A DNA stretch of 64,000 nt from Modestobacter roseus (GTDB lineage: Bacteria > Actinomycetota > Actinomycetes > Mycobacteriales > Geodermatophilaceae). Of the stretch, positions 24,025-37,657 are shown piece by piece. The notes under the pieces are model-generated. The model was not told the DNA's origin, did not search any database, and was given only the letters and a program-made list of their open reading frames with translations. The translations under genes were made by a program, and so were the position numbers. The stretch is from positions 2,728,001 to 2,792,000 of the forward strand of contig NZ_VLKF01000001.1 in assembly GCF_007994135.1 (NCBI RefSeq). Reading direction: 5' to 3'. The first letter of the stretch is position 1. Each line of letters begins with the position of its first letter.

Positions 24025-24101
24025 TGGTAGCGGGGACAGGATTTGAACCTGTGACCTCTGGGTTATGAGCCCAGCGAGCTACCGAGCTGCTCCACCCCGC
24101 G
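24025..24101 (-). tRNA. Initiator tRNA-Met (CAT), CCA encoded
   Basis: 77-base cloverleaf read on the minus strand. Anticodon CAT lies in GGGCTCATAACCC, giving the three G-C pairs typical of initiator tRNA; position 1 is C and does not pair normally with U72. T arm is ACAGG/CCTGT. The 3' CCA is encoded. A near-identical copy lies 190 bases upstream. Confidence 0.93.
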
Positions 24102-24292: not shown

Positions 24293-24366
24293 TAGCGGGG
24301 GCAGGATTTGAACCTGCGACCTCTGGGTTATGAGCCCAGCGAGCTACCGAGCTGCTCCACCCCGCG
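24293..24366 (-). tRNA. Initiator tRNA-Met (CAT), CCA not encoded
   Basis: 74-base cloverleaf identical to the first copy through the anticodon arm. T arm is GCAGG/CCTGC, a compensated A-U to G-C change. The bases after A73 read CTC, so CCA must be added by nucleotidyltransferase. Confidence 0.93.
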
Positions 24367-34167: not shown

Positions 34168-34506
34168 TCATGCCGCCGCCCCGGTCCGGACCTTCGGGGG
34201 ACGGCCGCGCGGCCGCTTGCGGGGGATCACGACGCCACGGTCGAAGATCTCCCCTCCCCAGACGCCCCAGGGCTCGGCCCGGTCGAGCGCGCCGGCCAGG
34301 CACGACGCCCGGACCGGGCACTCGAGGCACAGGTCCTTGGCCTGCTCGAGCTGGGCCGGCGCCTCGGCGAACCACAGGTCCGGGTCGGATGACGCCCGGC
34401 AGGGCAGCGTGCGGCGCGGCGCCGGGCTGAGCCCGGTGGTGGACAGGTGCGTGCGGTCGATCCCTCGCCGGCGGTGGGTCGTCGCGGGCTCGATCGTGGT
34501 CGGCAC
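34168..34506 (-). CDS. whiB7: WhiB7 redox/antibiotic-response regulator
   Basis: 112-residue iron-sulfur WhiB protein that binds SigA and activates intrinsic drug-resistance genes. Four cluster Cys: C36, C60, C63, C69 (CxxC and Cx5C spacing). PWGVWGGEIF (79-88) is the SigA-contact turn, and the C-terminal RKRPRGRPPK (96-105) is the AT-hook that separates WhiB7 from other WhiBs. GTG 34506 with GAGGAGGA six bases upstream. Position beside aarF and uvrD2 matches M. tuberculosis. A long leader with a terminator precedes it. Confidence 0.95.
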   Translation of the reverse strand: MPTTIEPATTHRRRGIDRTHLSTTGLSPAPRRTLPCRASSDPDLWFAEAPAQLEQAKDLCLECPVRASCLAGALDRAEPWGVWGGEIFDRGVVIPRKRPRGRPPKVRTGAAA

Positions 34507-34512
34507 GACCGC

Positions 34513-34520
34513 TCCTCCTC
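34513..34520 (-). promoter_or_regulatory. whiB7 Shine-Dalgarno, complementary to 34634-34641
   Basis: On the minus strand GAGGAGGA, 6 bases before the GTG. The leader segment TCCTCCTC at 34634-34641 is its exact complement, so the site can be masked. Confidence 0.5.
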
Positions 34521-34588
34521 TTCCTCGGTCGGTGGACCGGGCGGCGGGGTCCCGCCGACCGGTGGTCGGGGTGGGTCCGCGAGGTGGA

Positions 34589-34631
34589 GAAAGAAGAAGG
34601 CCGCGGATCCCGGTTTCCGGGTTCCGCGGCC
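34589..34631 (-). terminator. Intrinsic attenuator terminator in whiB7 leader
   Basis: On the minus strand a stem of GGCCGCGGA and CCCGG pairs across an AAA loop with CCGGG and TCCGCGGCC (34599-34631, one internal mismatch), then TTCTTCTTTCT. It is the only hairpin in the window with a real T-rich tail. It sits 22 bases after the leader ORF stop and about 80 bases before the whiB7 start. Confidence 0.85.
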
Positions 34632-34653
34632 TCGAGGAGGACCAGCCGAGCGG

Positions 34654-35025
34654 CTAGCTCAGCGGGTCTTCCGGGGGCAGGTCACCCGGGGTGGTGCTGG
34701 TGGTGCGCAGTGCGGTGAGGGTGGTGCGCAGCGCGGGGACGCCGGAGACGGCGAAGCCCGTGCCCGTGGGGTCGATCAGGTGCGCATCGGTGCCGTAGGT
34801 GGCACCGGTGGCGTGAGCAGCGGTGGCGAGGAGGTCCAGAGCGCGCAGCCGGACAGCCGGCTCGGTGGTGGACAGACCCGTCCCCTGGAACGGAGCGGCG
34901 GTGGGCGCCATCAGGACGACCCGCTCGGTCCACTCACCCGGGCGCACGGCCGGAGCGCACGCGGCAGCAGCCGGCTCGGGGGCCACGACGCCCTTGCCGG
35001 TCACGACGAAGTCGGTGCTGTTCAC
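34654..35025 (-). CDS. Leader ORF upstream of whiB7, 123 residues, unknown function
   Basis: GTG start at 35025 with GGAGAGGAGGGG just upstream, the strongest Shine-Dalgarno in the area. Product starts MNSTDFVVTGKGVVAPEP and ends in a Thr-rich run and PEDPLS; no known domain, Cys only once, no membrane helix. It lies wholly between the whiB7 promoter and the attenuator, so it is the upstream ORF of the whiB7 transcript. whiB7 leaders elsewhere carry short regulatory ORFs; this one is long enough to be a folded protein. G/C-biased third positions support translation. Confidence 0.65.
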   Translation of the reverse strand: MNSTDFVVTGKGVVAPEPAAAACAPAVRPGEWTERVVLMAPTAAPFQGTGLSTTEPAVRLRALDLLATAAHATGATYGTDAHLIDPTGTGFAVSGVPALRTTLTALRTTSTTPGDLPPEDPLS

Positions 35026-35134
35026 GGTCCCCTCCTCTCCGGGGTCGGGGCTCGGCCTGCCGGCCGGGCTCCCTGCTGGTGGTGCGGTCTGTGCTGTGCA
35101 GTGCGTCCTGGGTCACCCCCAGGTGCTGCAGCGA

Positions 35135-35164
35135 AGGCTAGGGGGTGGCCGACGAACGGGTCAA
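35135..35164 (-). promoter_or_regulatory. whiB7 promoter with WhiB7-type AT-rich upstream element
   Basis: Minus strand: TTGACC (35159-35164), 18-base spacer, TAGCCT (35135-35140). Directly upstream is TAATTCGA (35165-35172), an AT-rich patch rare in this genome and placed where the WhiB7 AT-hook binds at autoregulated promoters. Predicted leader is about 620 bases. Confidence 0.75.
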
Positions 35165-35216
35165 TCGAATTAGCGCACGATCGCCGGAAAGTGTGTCCGT
35201 GCAGGTCAGCGGCGCA

Positions 35217-37247
35217 TCACTCGTCGATGGCCGCGAGCACGCCGGCGCCGTAGAGCTCCAGCTTCCGGGCGCCGACGCCGGGCAGGGCCGACAGCTCGCG
35301 CAGTGACGTCGGCCGGGTCTCGGCGATCGCCTGCAGCGTGGCGTCGGTGAACACCACGTAGGCCGGCACGGACGCCTCCTGGGCGGTGGTGCTGCGCCAG
35401 GAGCGGAGCCGTTCGAACCGCTCGCCCGCCTCGCCCTCCAGGACGACCTTGGGGCGTTTGGCCGGCCGCCGGGGCGCCGCCGCGGTGTCGGGGGCCAGCC
35501 CGTCGAGGAACCGGCTGCGCGGCCGGGCCCGCCGTCCCCCGGGGTTGCGGGCGAGCGACCAGGAGAGGGTCAGCTGCTCGCGGGCCCGGGTGACCGCGAC
35601 GTAGAGCAGCCGCCGCTCCTCCTCGACCGCCTCCGGGCGCGACTGCGACTGGGCGATGGGGACCACACCGTCGACGAGCCCGACCACGAAGACGGCGTCC
35701 CACTCCAGGCCCTTGGCCGCGTGCATCGACGCAAGAGTCACGCCCTGCACCGTCGGGGCGTGCTGGGCGTTGGCGCGCTCGGCGAGGTGCGCGACGAACC
35801 CGGCGAGGTCGAGCGCGGGCTGCTCGGCGACGAGGTCGACGGCGAGGTCGACCAGCGCGGCGAGGGACTGCCAGCGGTCGCGGGCGGCGCCGCCCGGCGG
35901 CGGCTGGTGCTCCGCCCACCCGAGCGAGGCCAGCACGTCGCGGACGGTGGGCACCAGCGCGCCGGCCTCGTGACCACCGGCGGCCGCACCGCGCAGCAGC
36001 AGGACCGCCTCGCGCACCTCGGGTCGCTCGAAGAACCGCTCACCGCCCTTGAGCACGTAGGGGACGCCGACGTCGGCCAGCGCGCTCTCGTAGACCTGGG
36101 ACTGCGCGTTGATCCGGAACAGCACCGCGATCTCGCTGGCCGGGAGCCCGCCGTCGATCAGCTCCCGGCAGGCCGCCGCCACCGCGGCCGCCTCGGCCGG
36201 TTCGTCGGGGTGCTCGACGAACCGCGGGGCCGGGCCCTCGGGGCGCTGACCCAGCAGCCGCAGCCCGGGCAGCCCCTTGCGCGGCGGCGCCTGGCCGATC
36301 AGCTTGTTGGCCAGCCCGACCACCTGCGGGGTGGAGCGGTAGTCGCGCTCCAGCTTGACCACCTCGGCGTCGCCGTAGCGGTCGGCGAACCCGAGCAGGT
36401 AGTCGGGGTCGGCGCCGGTGAAGGAGTAGATCGTCTGGTTCGGGTCGCCGACCACGCACACCTCGGCCCGGCCGCCGAGCCAGGCGTCCAGCAGCCGCTG
36501 CTGCAGGGGGTTGACGTCCTGGTACTCGTCGACGACGAAGTGCCGGTACTGCGCGCGCACCTCCCGGGCCACGTCCGGGTGCTCCTCGATGGCGTAGGCG
36601 GTGACCAGCAGCAGGTCCTCGAAGTCCAGGGCGCCGTCCCGGGACTTGGCCTCCTCGTAACTGCGGTAGACCGCGGCGACCGCCGCCGCGTCGAAGGGCA
36701 GCTCGCGGGCGGCCGCCGCGGCCCGGGCCGGGTAGTCGTCCGGGGTGGCCAGCGTGGTCTTGGCCCACTCGATCTCGCTGGCGAGGTCGCGCAGGCTGGT
36801 GCGGTCGGTGGTCAGCCGGTTGCGGGTGGCGGCGCCGGCGACGACGCGGAGCTTGTTCTCGACCAGCTCCGGCATCGGGCCACCGAGGACCCGCGGGGCG
36901 AAGTAGCGCAGCTGCCGCATCGCCGCGGAGTGGAAGGTGCGTGCCTGCACGCCCCCCACGCCGAGCGCGGACAGCCGCCCGCGCAGCTCGCCCGCGGCTC
37001 GGGCGGTGAAGGTCACGGCGAGCACCTGCTCGGGGACGAACTCCCCCAGGTGCACGCCGTAGGCGATCCGGTGGGTGATCGTGCGGGTCTTGCCGGTGCC
37101 GGCACCCGCGAGGATGCAGACCGGCCCCCGGACCGCCACCGCGGCCGCCCGCTGCTGCTCGTCCAACCCGGCGAGCACCGCCTCGGCGCCCGCCGACCCG
37201 TCGTGCCCCTGTTCTGCCCTGTGCACCTGATCTGCTACCCGCGGCAT
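35217..37247 (-). CDS. uvrD2: UvrD2-type superfamily 1A DNA helicase with HRDC domain
   Basis: 676-residue 3'-5' helicase/translocase. Walker A GAGTGKTRT (48-56), motif II region VVDEYQDVNPLQQ, motif III GDPNQTIYSFTGAD, motif IV RDYRSTPQVV and motif VI YVAVTRAREQL. The C-terminal 80 residues hold an HRDC domain (SLRELSALPGVGARKLELYG), as in mycobacterial UvrD2. No tetracysteine motif is seen between the two, where mycobacterial UvrD2 has one. ATG 37247 is chosen; a GTG two codons upstream is possible. Divergent from the mycoredoxin gene. Confidence 0.93.
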   Translation of the reverse strand: MPRVADQVHRAEQGHDGSAGAEAVLAGLDEQQRAAAVAVRGPVCILAGAGTGKTRTITHRIAYGVHLGEFVPEQVLAVTFTARAAGELRGRLSALGVGGVQARTFHSAAMRQLRYFAPRVLGGPMPELVENKLRVVAGAATRNRLTTDRTSLRDLASEIEWAKTTLATPDDYPARAAAAARELPFDAAAVAAVYRSYEEAKSRDGALDFEDLLLVTAYAIEEHPDVAREVRAQYRHFVVDEYQDVNPLQQRLLDAWLGGRAEVCVVGDPNQTIYSFTGADPDYLLGFADRYGDAEVVKLERDYRSTPQVVGLANKLIGQAPPRKGLPGLRLLGQRPEGPAPRFVEHPDEPAEAAAVAAACRELIDGGLPASEIAVLFRINAQSQVYESALADVGVPYVLKGGERFFERPEVREAVLLLRGAAAGGHEAGALVPTVRDVLASLGWAEHQPPPGGAARDRWQSLAALVDLAVDLVAEQPALDLAGFVAHLAERANAQHAPTVQGVTLASMHAAKGLEWDAVFVVGLVDGVVPIAQSQSRPEAVEEERRLLYVAVTRAREQLTLSWSLARNPGGRRARPRSRFLDGLAPDTAAAPRRPAKRPKVVLEGEAGERFERLRSWRSTTAQEASVPAYVVFTDATLQAIAETRPTSLRELSALPGVGARKLELYGAGVLAAIDE

Positions 37248-37287
37248 CCCCACGCCGCCGAGTCTCCCAGCCCGGGACGACAGCCCG

Positions 37288-37314
37288 GGGAAGCATCCCC
37301 AGGACGGCTGCGTT
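37288..37314 (+). promoter_or_regulatory. SigR-type promoter ahead of mycoredoxin gene
   Basis: GGGAAG (37288-37293), 18-base spacer, GTT (37312-37314). The GGAA and GTT core and the spacing fit SigR/SigH; the sixth base is G instead of T. Leader to the ATG would be about 75 bases. Confidence 0.5.
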
Positions 37315-37393
37315 CCCCCATCGGCACAGTCCCCGGGGCGGGCCACCTCCCCCGGGTGGCCGTCCGGGGCACGGACGAGGGAGGATCCATCCG

Positions 37394-37657
37394 ATGAGCG
37401 CTCCGGCACCCACAGTGACGATGTACACCACCAACTGGTGCGGCTACTGCGTCCGGCTGAAGAAGCTGATGCAGCGCGAGGGGATCGAGTACGCCGAGGT
37501 CAACATCGAGACCGACGAGAACGCCGCCGAGCTGGTCATGAACGCCAACGGCGGCAACCGGACCGTCCCCACGCTGGTGTTCGCCGACGGCTCGGCGCTG
37601 ACCAACCCGAGCATCGAGCAGGTCAAGGGCCAGCTCGCGAAGCTCCCGGGCGCGTGA
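37394..37657 (+). CDS. mrx1: Mycoredoxin (glutaredoxin-like, mycothiol-dependent)
   Basis: 87-residue thioredoxin-fold oxidoreductase that reduces mycothiol mixed disulfides. Active site WCGYC with Cys16 and Cys19; the cis-Pro region NRTVPTLVFADGS and GSALTNPS tail are typical of Mrx1 (Rv3198A). ATG 37394 has GGGAGGA upstream. Its TGA overlaps the GTG of the ANTAR gene. A SigR-type promoter upstream agrees with a thiol-stress role. Confidence 0.93.
   Translation: MSAPAPTVTMYTTNWCGYCVRLKKLMQREGIEYAEVNIETDENAAELVMNANGGNRTVPTLVFADGSALTNPSIEQVKGQLAKLPGA

Follow-up and report, generated by a model that had tools for sequence, protein, structure and literature searches.

A probable whiB7 attenuator in Modestobacter with a long, putatively stall-sensing upstream reading frame

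On the minus strand of a 64,000 nt stretch of DNA (the window) from Modestobacter, a soil bacterium (here M. roseus), whiB7 lies behind a leader whose anatomy, conservation, frame constraint and predicted folds we document here. This is probably the whiB7 attenuator of Modestobacter, in which a long stall-sensing upstream ORF (uORF) may contain a few short islands as drug-stop sites. WhiB7 governs intrinsic resistance to many ribosome-targeting drugs in actinobacteria and its leader is thought to be the sensor, with the attenuator best studied in Mycobacterium. Attenuation of whiB7/wblC through a uORF and a terminator is reported in passages of PMC11550727 and PMC10727445, and the citing text in these papers and in PMC13393426 credits Lee 2022 and Burian and Thompson 2018 with work on this attenuator. 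The Modestobacter leader matches the known whiB7/wblC attenuator, having in common with it a WhiB7-type gene, an autoregulatory promoter element, a uORF, an intrinsic terminator, and a predicted antiterminator formed from the uORF end and a terminator arm, although it differs from other such attenuators in its own uORF and antiterminator sequences and in the shortness of the Modestobacter helix. New in this analysis are the translation-track behaviour of the uORF, the drift-resistant islands, including Arg-Leu-Arg, and an antiterminator that is predicted to be free at early stalls.

Organisation and conservation of the whiB7 locus

Read along the minus strand, the locus runs from a UvrD-type helicase gene through a promoter, the uORF, a hairpin at the uORF stop codon and a terminator to whiB7. 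The preliminary description had proposed the series promoter, uORF, terminator and whiB7, and this was confirmed on the sequence, with the same layout at 22/22 whiB7 loci of the genus. The helicase (35217..37409, minus strand) was assigned using Pfam and carries an HRDC domain, and by eye its C-terminal end likewise precedes whiB7 in loci from Mycobacterium (L111) and Rhodococcus (L119). At the other end of the leader, whiB7 (34168..34506, minus strand) follows a Shine-Dalgarno sequence, GAGGAGGAG, at 34512..34520 and encodes a 112 aa product with a WhiB domain (Pfam, E 4e-15) and the AT-hook RGRP, for which M. tuberculosis WhiB7 is the top match among solved structures (E 4e-31, with the AT-hook covered). 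By its Wbl domain, C-terminal AT-hook and this best structure match, the downstream gene is identified from its sequence as WhiB7. Elsewhere in the window, two tRNA genes lie on the minus strand at 24028-24101 and 24293-24366.

The SigA-like promoter with an AT-rich WhiB7 element that had been described is present and is kept across the genus loci (35135..35173, minus strand; sequence and genus alignment). On inspection it consists of a -35 hexamer TTGACC (35164-35159), an 18-nt spacer and a -10 hexamer TAGCCT (35140-35135), with the AT element CTAATT (35173-35168) positioned 3 nt 5' of the -35. According to a figure legend in PMC7157823 the S. coelicolor WblC element is GAAAWY and lies at the same distance from the -35; CTAATT agrees with this S. 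coelicolor element at 4/6 positions. A strict consensus scanner returned no promoters and no terminators, as it needs 4/6 matches in the -10 and allows no stem mismatch, and owing to this strictness its silence between the hairpin and whiB7 is weak evidence against a promoter there. Just 3' of the -10 we also observed an inverted repeat, CCTGG..CCAGG (35123-35107, minus strand), visible by eye in 17/17 aligned Modestobacter leaders, which at the extreme 5' end of the RNA is possibly an RNA-stability element. A second inverted repeat, CGGCC....GGCCG (35066-35053, minus strand), precedes the uORF Shine-Dalgarno in the 5' leader and is, by eye, kept among Modestobacter apart from small changes.

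A whiB7 locus was found in 22/23 Modestobacter genomes, the sole exception being G002 (80% complete), in which there was no whiB7 match, and promoter, uORF and hairpin were present in 22/22. These comprise 17 loci aligned from promoter to whiB7 and five found via whiB7 alone. The latter, which lie outside the 226-leader set used below, have the same promoter and hairpin with uORFs of 90-113 codons, and are the fairer check because 15/17 aligned loci were found via the uORF of the window, which favours conserved pieces. A stricter first scanner had called the hairpin in 15/17 and the promoter in 13/17 genus loci, with the remainder visible in the alignment. Comparison with the leaders of other Geodermatophilaceae, which had been suggested earlier, extended this layout to the family: whiB7 was detected in 72/76 family genomes at E 1e-20, and among 72 distinct loci, a set without four hits at contig starts, a uORF and terminator were called in 71, the remaining one being cut by a contig end. 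The terminator stem, GGCCGCGGA...TCCGCGGCC, is nearly invariant over 67 distinct family sequences. For the class, 167/196 genomes matched and 106 loci were used (17/80 named loci, belonging to the window's own family, were left out); a GGCC-CGG...CCG-GGC stem was matched in 97/106, one match being at an unlikely place. Overall, the uORF-terminator arrangement precedes whiB7 in 226/241 class loci, with no such call in 15/241, including 4/10 of group f30. Rfam at its gathering threshold gave no family match at the leader.

Constraint on the upstream reading frame

The uORF occupies 34654..35025 on the minus strand, with 123 codons running from a GTG start at 35025 to a TAG stop at 34654, and is preceded by a strong Shine-Dalgarno sequence, GGAGAGGAGGGG (35029..35040), in a region kept across the genus; both the strong Shine-Dalgarno and the 123-codon length had been claimed and both were found. 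Among the 17 aligned genus loci the constraint on this open frame is strong. Pairwise indels are multiples of three in 606/664 cases (91%) within the uORF vs 130/1014 (13%) outside, the pairs being non-independent, and the uORF has a median dN/dS of 1.10 vs 0.37 for whiB7. The stop codon turns over at a fixed place (TAG in 15 loci, TAA in one and TGA in one), and stop and hairpin are separated by 15-28 nt in 219/226 actinobacterial leaders, with a median of 22. Taken together, in-frame indels, dN/dS, stop turnover and steady stop-hairpin distance show that the frame is retained while most of the peptide drifts, and by these sequence comparisons the uORF acts as a track for translation and not as a protein.

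Frame openness itself was dropped as evidence, since the in-register antisense frame is open in 17/17 Modestobacter loci and in 197/226 overall, so that open frames, a by-product of GC-rich codon usage, are poor evidence here. Translations had also raised the suspicion that the peptide end is frame-shifted between genera; alignment led us to reject this, as the ends are of equal length and, by eye, only the AGACC pairing element is displaced, by one base, against the frame.

These data bear directly on whether the 123-aa ORF could be an ordinary small protein gene, with the hairpin as its own terminator and whiB7 expressed mainly through read-through or from a promoter of its own. Such a gene would agree with the annotation of a hypothetical protein in several Modestobacter genomes and with the open frame and good Shine-Dalgarno, but it is hard to reconcile with a dN/dS of 1.1, with a product that has no Pfam match and a best NCBIfam match of only E 0.35, with lengths of 90-134 codons inside Modestobacter next to a near-fixed stop-hairpin distance, or with the recurrence of the same arrangement before whiB7 at those 226/241 class loci, and we regard it as very improbable.

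The length of the uORF had been singled out in the preliminary description as far greater than in known leaders. This proved false against Streptomyces, in which uORFs span 90-123 codons (12 loci), and is true only against mycobacteria, with a median of 51.5 codons (12 loci; range 41-67). Over the 226 leaders the median was 91 codons (range 37-202) and 18 leaders, the window included, have at least 123, these lengths being approximate as start codons were picked by Shine-Dalgarno score. Median lengths were highest in Dactylosporangium (170.5 codons, 2 loci), f30 (157.5, 6) and Nocardia (113, 19; range 104-142), followed by Modestobacter (109, 17), f31 (107, 12) and other Geodermatophilaceae (97, 54), and were lowest in Rhodococcus (58, 13) and Mycobacterium. 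A 123-codon uORF is therefore ordinary for the class, with mycobacteria forming a short group, and uORF length does not distinguish the Streptomyces wblC leader from that of Modestobacter. Group f31 is Streptomyces, as the uORF of its locus L208 is 99% identical to a Streptomyces-named protein; the best 120 of 1498 relatives of this uORF, gathered by shared words, are 104-131 aa long (median 108) and the named ones are from Streptomyces. A plasmid search with the Streptomyces uORF found none. Among named loci the longest uORFs were those of Dactylosporangium L136 and L146, with 160 and 181 codons by Shine-Dalgarno choice.

Predicted RNA folds and the proposed switch

Between the uORF and whiB7 there is, as judged from sequence and fold, an intrinsic terminator (34588..34633, minus strand), made of a hairpin at 34633-34597 with 16 pairs, one A-A mismatch and a predicted energy of -32.5 kcal/mol, followed by the U-rich tail CTTCTTTCT at 34596-34588. 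The terminator reported earlier after the ORF stop, with its U-rich tail, was thus recovered, although the gap is 20 nt and not the 22 given. The 133-nt 3' part of the leader folds with a z of -5.3, none of 200 shuffles being equally stable, and the fold of the stop region has a mean z of -4.2 over 17 Modestobacter. Within this region a second predicted hairpin spans the uORF stop codon (34636..34672, minus strand; GGA.GACC.GCUGAGC / GCUCGGC.GGUC.UCC). When folding was restricted to RNA ending at the 5' arm of the terminator, CCGGGU from the uORF end (34684..34689) was predicted to pair with ACCCGG in that arm (34622-34617), over the stop-codon hairpin; without the terminator 3' arm, the predicted fold of the RNA is this antiterminator. 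Since the terminator wins at equilibrium, the switch must be kinetic.

We examined the predicted switch by folding the leader with a 30-nt ribosome mask placed at 19 positions, using an assumed transcription start. Capture of nt 9-17 of the terminator arm was 0.71-0.80 at 11/11 ribosome positions between codons 1 and 108, fell to 0.12 at codon 110, and rebounded at codons 112 (0.56) and 120 (0.55). For nt 1-8 of the arm there was no clean switch, with values of 0.57 at most early positions and 0.99 at codon 120. A ribosome stalled at any of the 11 positions up to codon 108 is thus predicted to leave the antiterminator free.

We infer translation of the uORF, the switch itself and autoactivation, and propose that they work as follows. 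RNA polymerase would start at the WhiB7-responsive promoter, with a ribosome trailing through the 123-codon uORF. A ribosome keeping pace into the last 12-15 codons would cover the uORF 3' end and melt the stop-codon hairpin, upon which the terminator would form and whiB7 would be off. With an earlier stall, at roughly codons 1-108, the uORF 3' end would instead fold over the stop hairpin and capture the terminator 5' arm, allowing the polymerase to read through and whiB7 to be made, and WhiB7 would in turn activate the promoter of its gene. The peptide would be largely arbitrary, the long frame serving as a broad track on which stalls are sensed, and a small number of short islands, Arg-Leu-Arg above all, may be kept as stop sites for particular drugs. 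The original suggestion of a ribosome-sensing whiB7 leader is well supported in its mechanism by the anatomy, the UvrD-type helicase neighbour and the family-wide conservation, and has lost its distinction by uORF length. As in the ilvB1 attenuator of M. tuberculosis, described in part of PMC13236596, ribosome position would pick terminator or antiterminator; unlike in amino-acid attenuators, the prediction is that stalls count at every position tried up to codon 108. By eye, the uORF translation contains no run of regulatory codons, with at most four alanines consecutively, near the N-terminus. Richness in alanine, serine and threonine may also serve as a chloramphenicol/linezolid context.

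We compared the pairing of each uORF tail with its terminator arm against shuffled tails over the 226 leaders, which gave a mean z of -2.3, with at most 5/100 shuffles as good in 144/226. Pairing was strongest in Dactylosporangium (z -4.4), Streptomyces (-4.1, 12/12), Nocardia (-2.9) and Rhodococcus (-2.7), and weak in Modestobacter (-1.0, 2/17), Mycobacterium (-0.9, 3/12), f30 and f43; for the tail of the window, 19/100 shuffles bound the arm equally (z -1.1). Tails swapped in from other groups bound as well as the native tail in 23% of all trials and in 73% of those for Modestobacter, and only 97/226 native tails were matched by 10% or fewer of the swapped tails. The stop hairpin shows two compensatory pairs, a number reached by 167/500 shuffles, and the outer helix has no covariation, with its U-A pair broken in 7/13. 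RNAalifold on the 67 family sequences placed only a few pairs, all weak, 5' of the terminator, which leaves the antiterminator with little support from covariation. The locus is very likely a whiB7 attenuator; given the weak pairing in Modestobacter and compensation at shuffle level, the antiterminator helix modelled for this genus is a tentative assignment. As a separate observation, the tail-arm pairing of Dactylosporangium L136/L146 is very strong, at a mean of -32.3 kcal/mol.

Control could also be exerted at the level of translation, with constant read-through and the CCUCCUC before the hairpin masking the whiB7 Shine-Dalgarno. The stretch concerned, GGUCCUCCUCGAGG, is identical in 15/17 genus loci and could pair with GAGGAGGAG; the predicted folds, however, place it in the stop-codon hairpin, and a terminator in between would be pointless, which makes masking a most improbable explanation of the leader.

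Peptide islands and the R/K-X-R/K motif

In the 17-locus alignment two islands stand out besides the ends of the peptide, one at Ala-Ala-Pro..Gly-Thr-Gly-Leu, with Gly-Thr-Gly-Leu at codons 48-51 (34873..34884, minus strand), and the other at Arg-Leu-Arg, codons 59-61 (34843..34851, minus strand). Neither island varies among 25 related proteins gathered by shared words. Synonymous codons are used within the second island, with CGG in four, CGC in four and CGT in seven loci at Arg59, and CTG in three and CTC in 13 at Leu60. Arg-Leu-Arg is an instance of the pattern R/K-X-R/K (+X+), and the 17 aligned loci have RLR in 15, with RPR and RVR in the others, while among the five loci found via whiB7 the motif reads RLR, RTR or RRR in three and is absent from two, which makes 20/22 for the genus.

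Counted over uORF bodies, from which the last 12 codons were excluded so that a minimum distance between motif and stop is built in, R/K-X-R/K occurs in 195/226 vs 87 expected from shuffles, a comparison that still includes shared ancestry. It was found in 68/71 family uORFs vs 22.5 expected, and in 38/50 representatives with <40% identity vs 21.6 expected. The middle residue varies and the basic pair stays (RLR, RPR, RER, KHR, RVR). Arg-Glu-Arg is present in 114 of the best 120 (of 1498) Streptomyces-type proteins.

In passages of PMC8298421, R/K-X-R/K is a ribosome stall motif predominantly for ketolides and more loosely for macrolides, and Arg-Leu-Arg is the arrest site of ErmDL, where it is dispensable for erythromycin. 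By analogy, drugs may stall the ribosome at the uORF Arg-Leu-Arg, giving this leader ORF, like ErmDL, a candidate site of drug arrest. In ErmDL, the same passages place the motif at residues 6-8, with ErmD expression disfavoured by mRNA structure, whereas the Modestobacter motif sits 62 codons ahead of the stop, in a leader of 123 codons with a transcription terminator at its end. Our literature search, which covered papers in part, found nothing linking R/K-X-R/K to the whiB7 uORF, and none of the papers searched mentions whiB7 together with ErmDL.

We consider tentatively that the actinobacterial whiB7 uORF is a composite sensor, in which a sequence-neutral, length-elastic track responding to any stall carries a selected macrolide/ketolide arrest site and a Gly-x-Gly-Leu island. 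The motif at this site is for the most part Arg-Leu-Arg in Modestobacter, with Arg-Glu-Arg in Streptomyces and Lys-His-Arg in Mycobacterium. Such a sensor is possible rather than probable; we rated it slightly lower because two of the five further genus loci are without the motif. An attenuator with non-specific stalling and no drug-specific arrest sites, its islands kept by descent or for RNA reasons, has in our judgement close to an even chance of being correct. It would be in keeping with a peptide that is mostly neutral, with the standing of +X+ by z, no higher than 16th among 576 gapped residue-class pairs (25 shuffles per pair), with small +X+ excesses in other reading frames (z 1.4-2.4), and with the absence of the motif from 2/22 genus loci. 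Some groups are also at or below chance (f27 0/5, f30 4/6, Pseudonocardiaceae 4/7), and the motif is modest in Streptomyces, at 10/12 vs 7.0 expected. Against non-specific stalling stand the constancy of the basic pair as the middle residue changes, the presence of another +X+ in 127/158 uORFs that lack Arg-Leu-Arg vs 64.8 expected, the enrichment of spacing 1 and not of spacings 0, 2, 3 and 4, and the synonymous changes at R59 and L60.

If true, the composite sensor would combine broad and drug-specific inputs in one leader, and the neutrality of the other residues would account for one leader answering to many drugs and to starvation. Mycobacterial work cited in PMC10727445 ties WhiB7 to alanine starvation, and a passage of a 2025 paper (PMC12121999) states that antibiotic stalling of ribosomes inside the whiB7 uORF was still untested; a neutral track with embedded drug-specific sites would fit both. 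The Arg-x-Arg and Gly-x-Gly-Leu islands give exact candidate codons for drug stalling. Exact Gly-Thr-Gly-Leu was present in 51/226 uORF bodies vs 1.3 expected, including 8/12 of the Streptomyces group and 5/19 of Nocardia.
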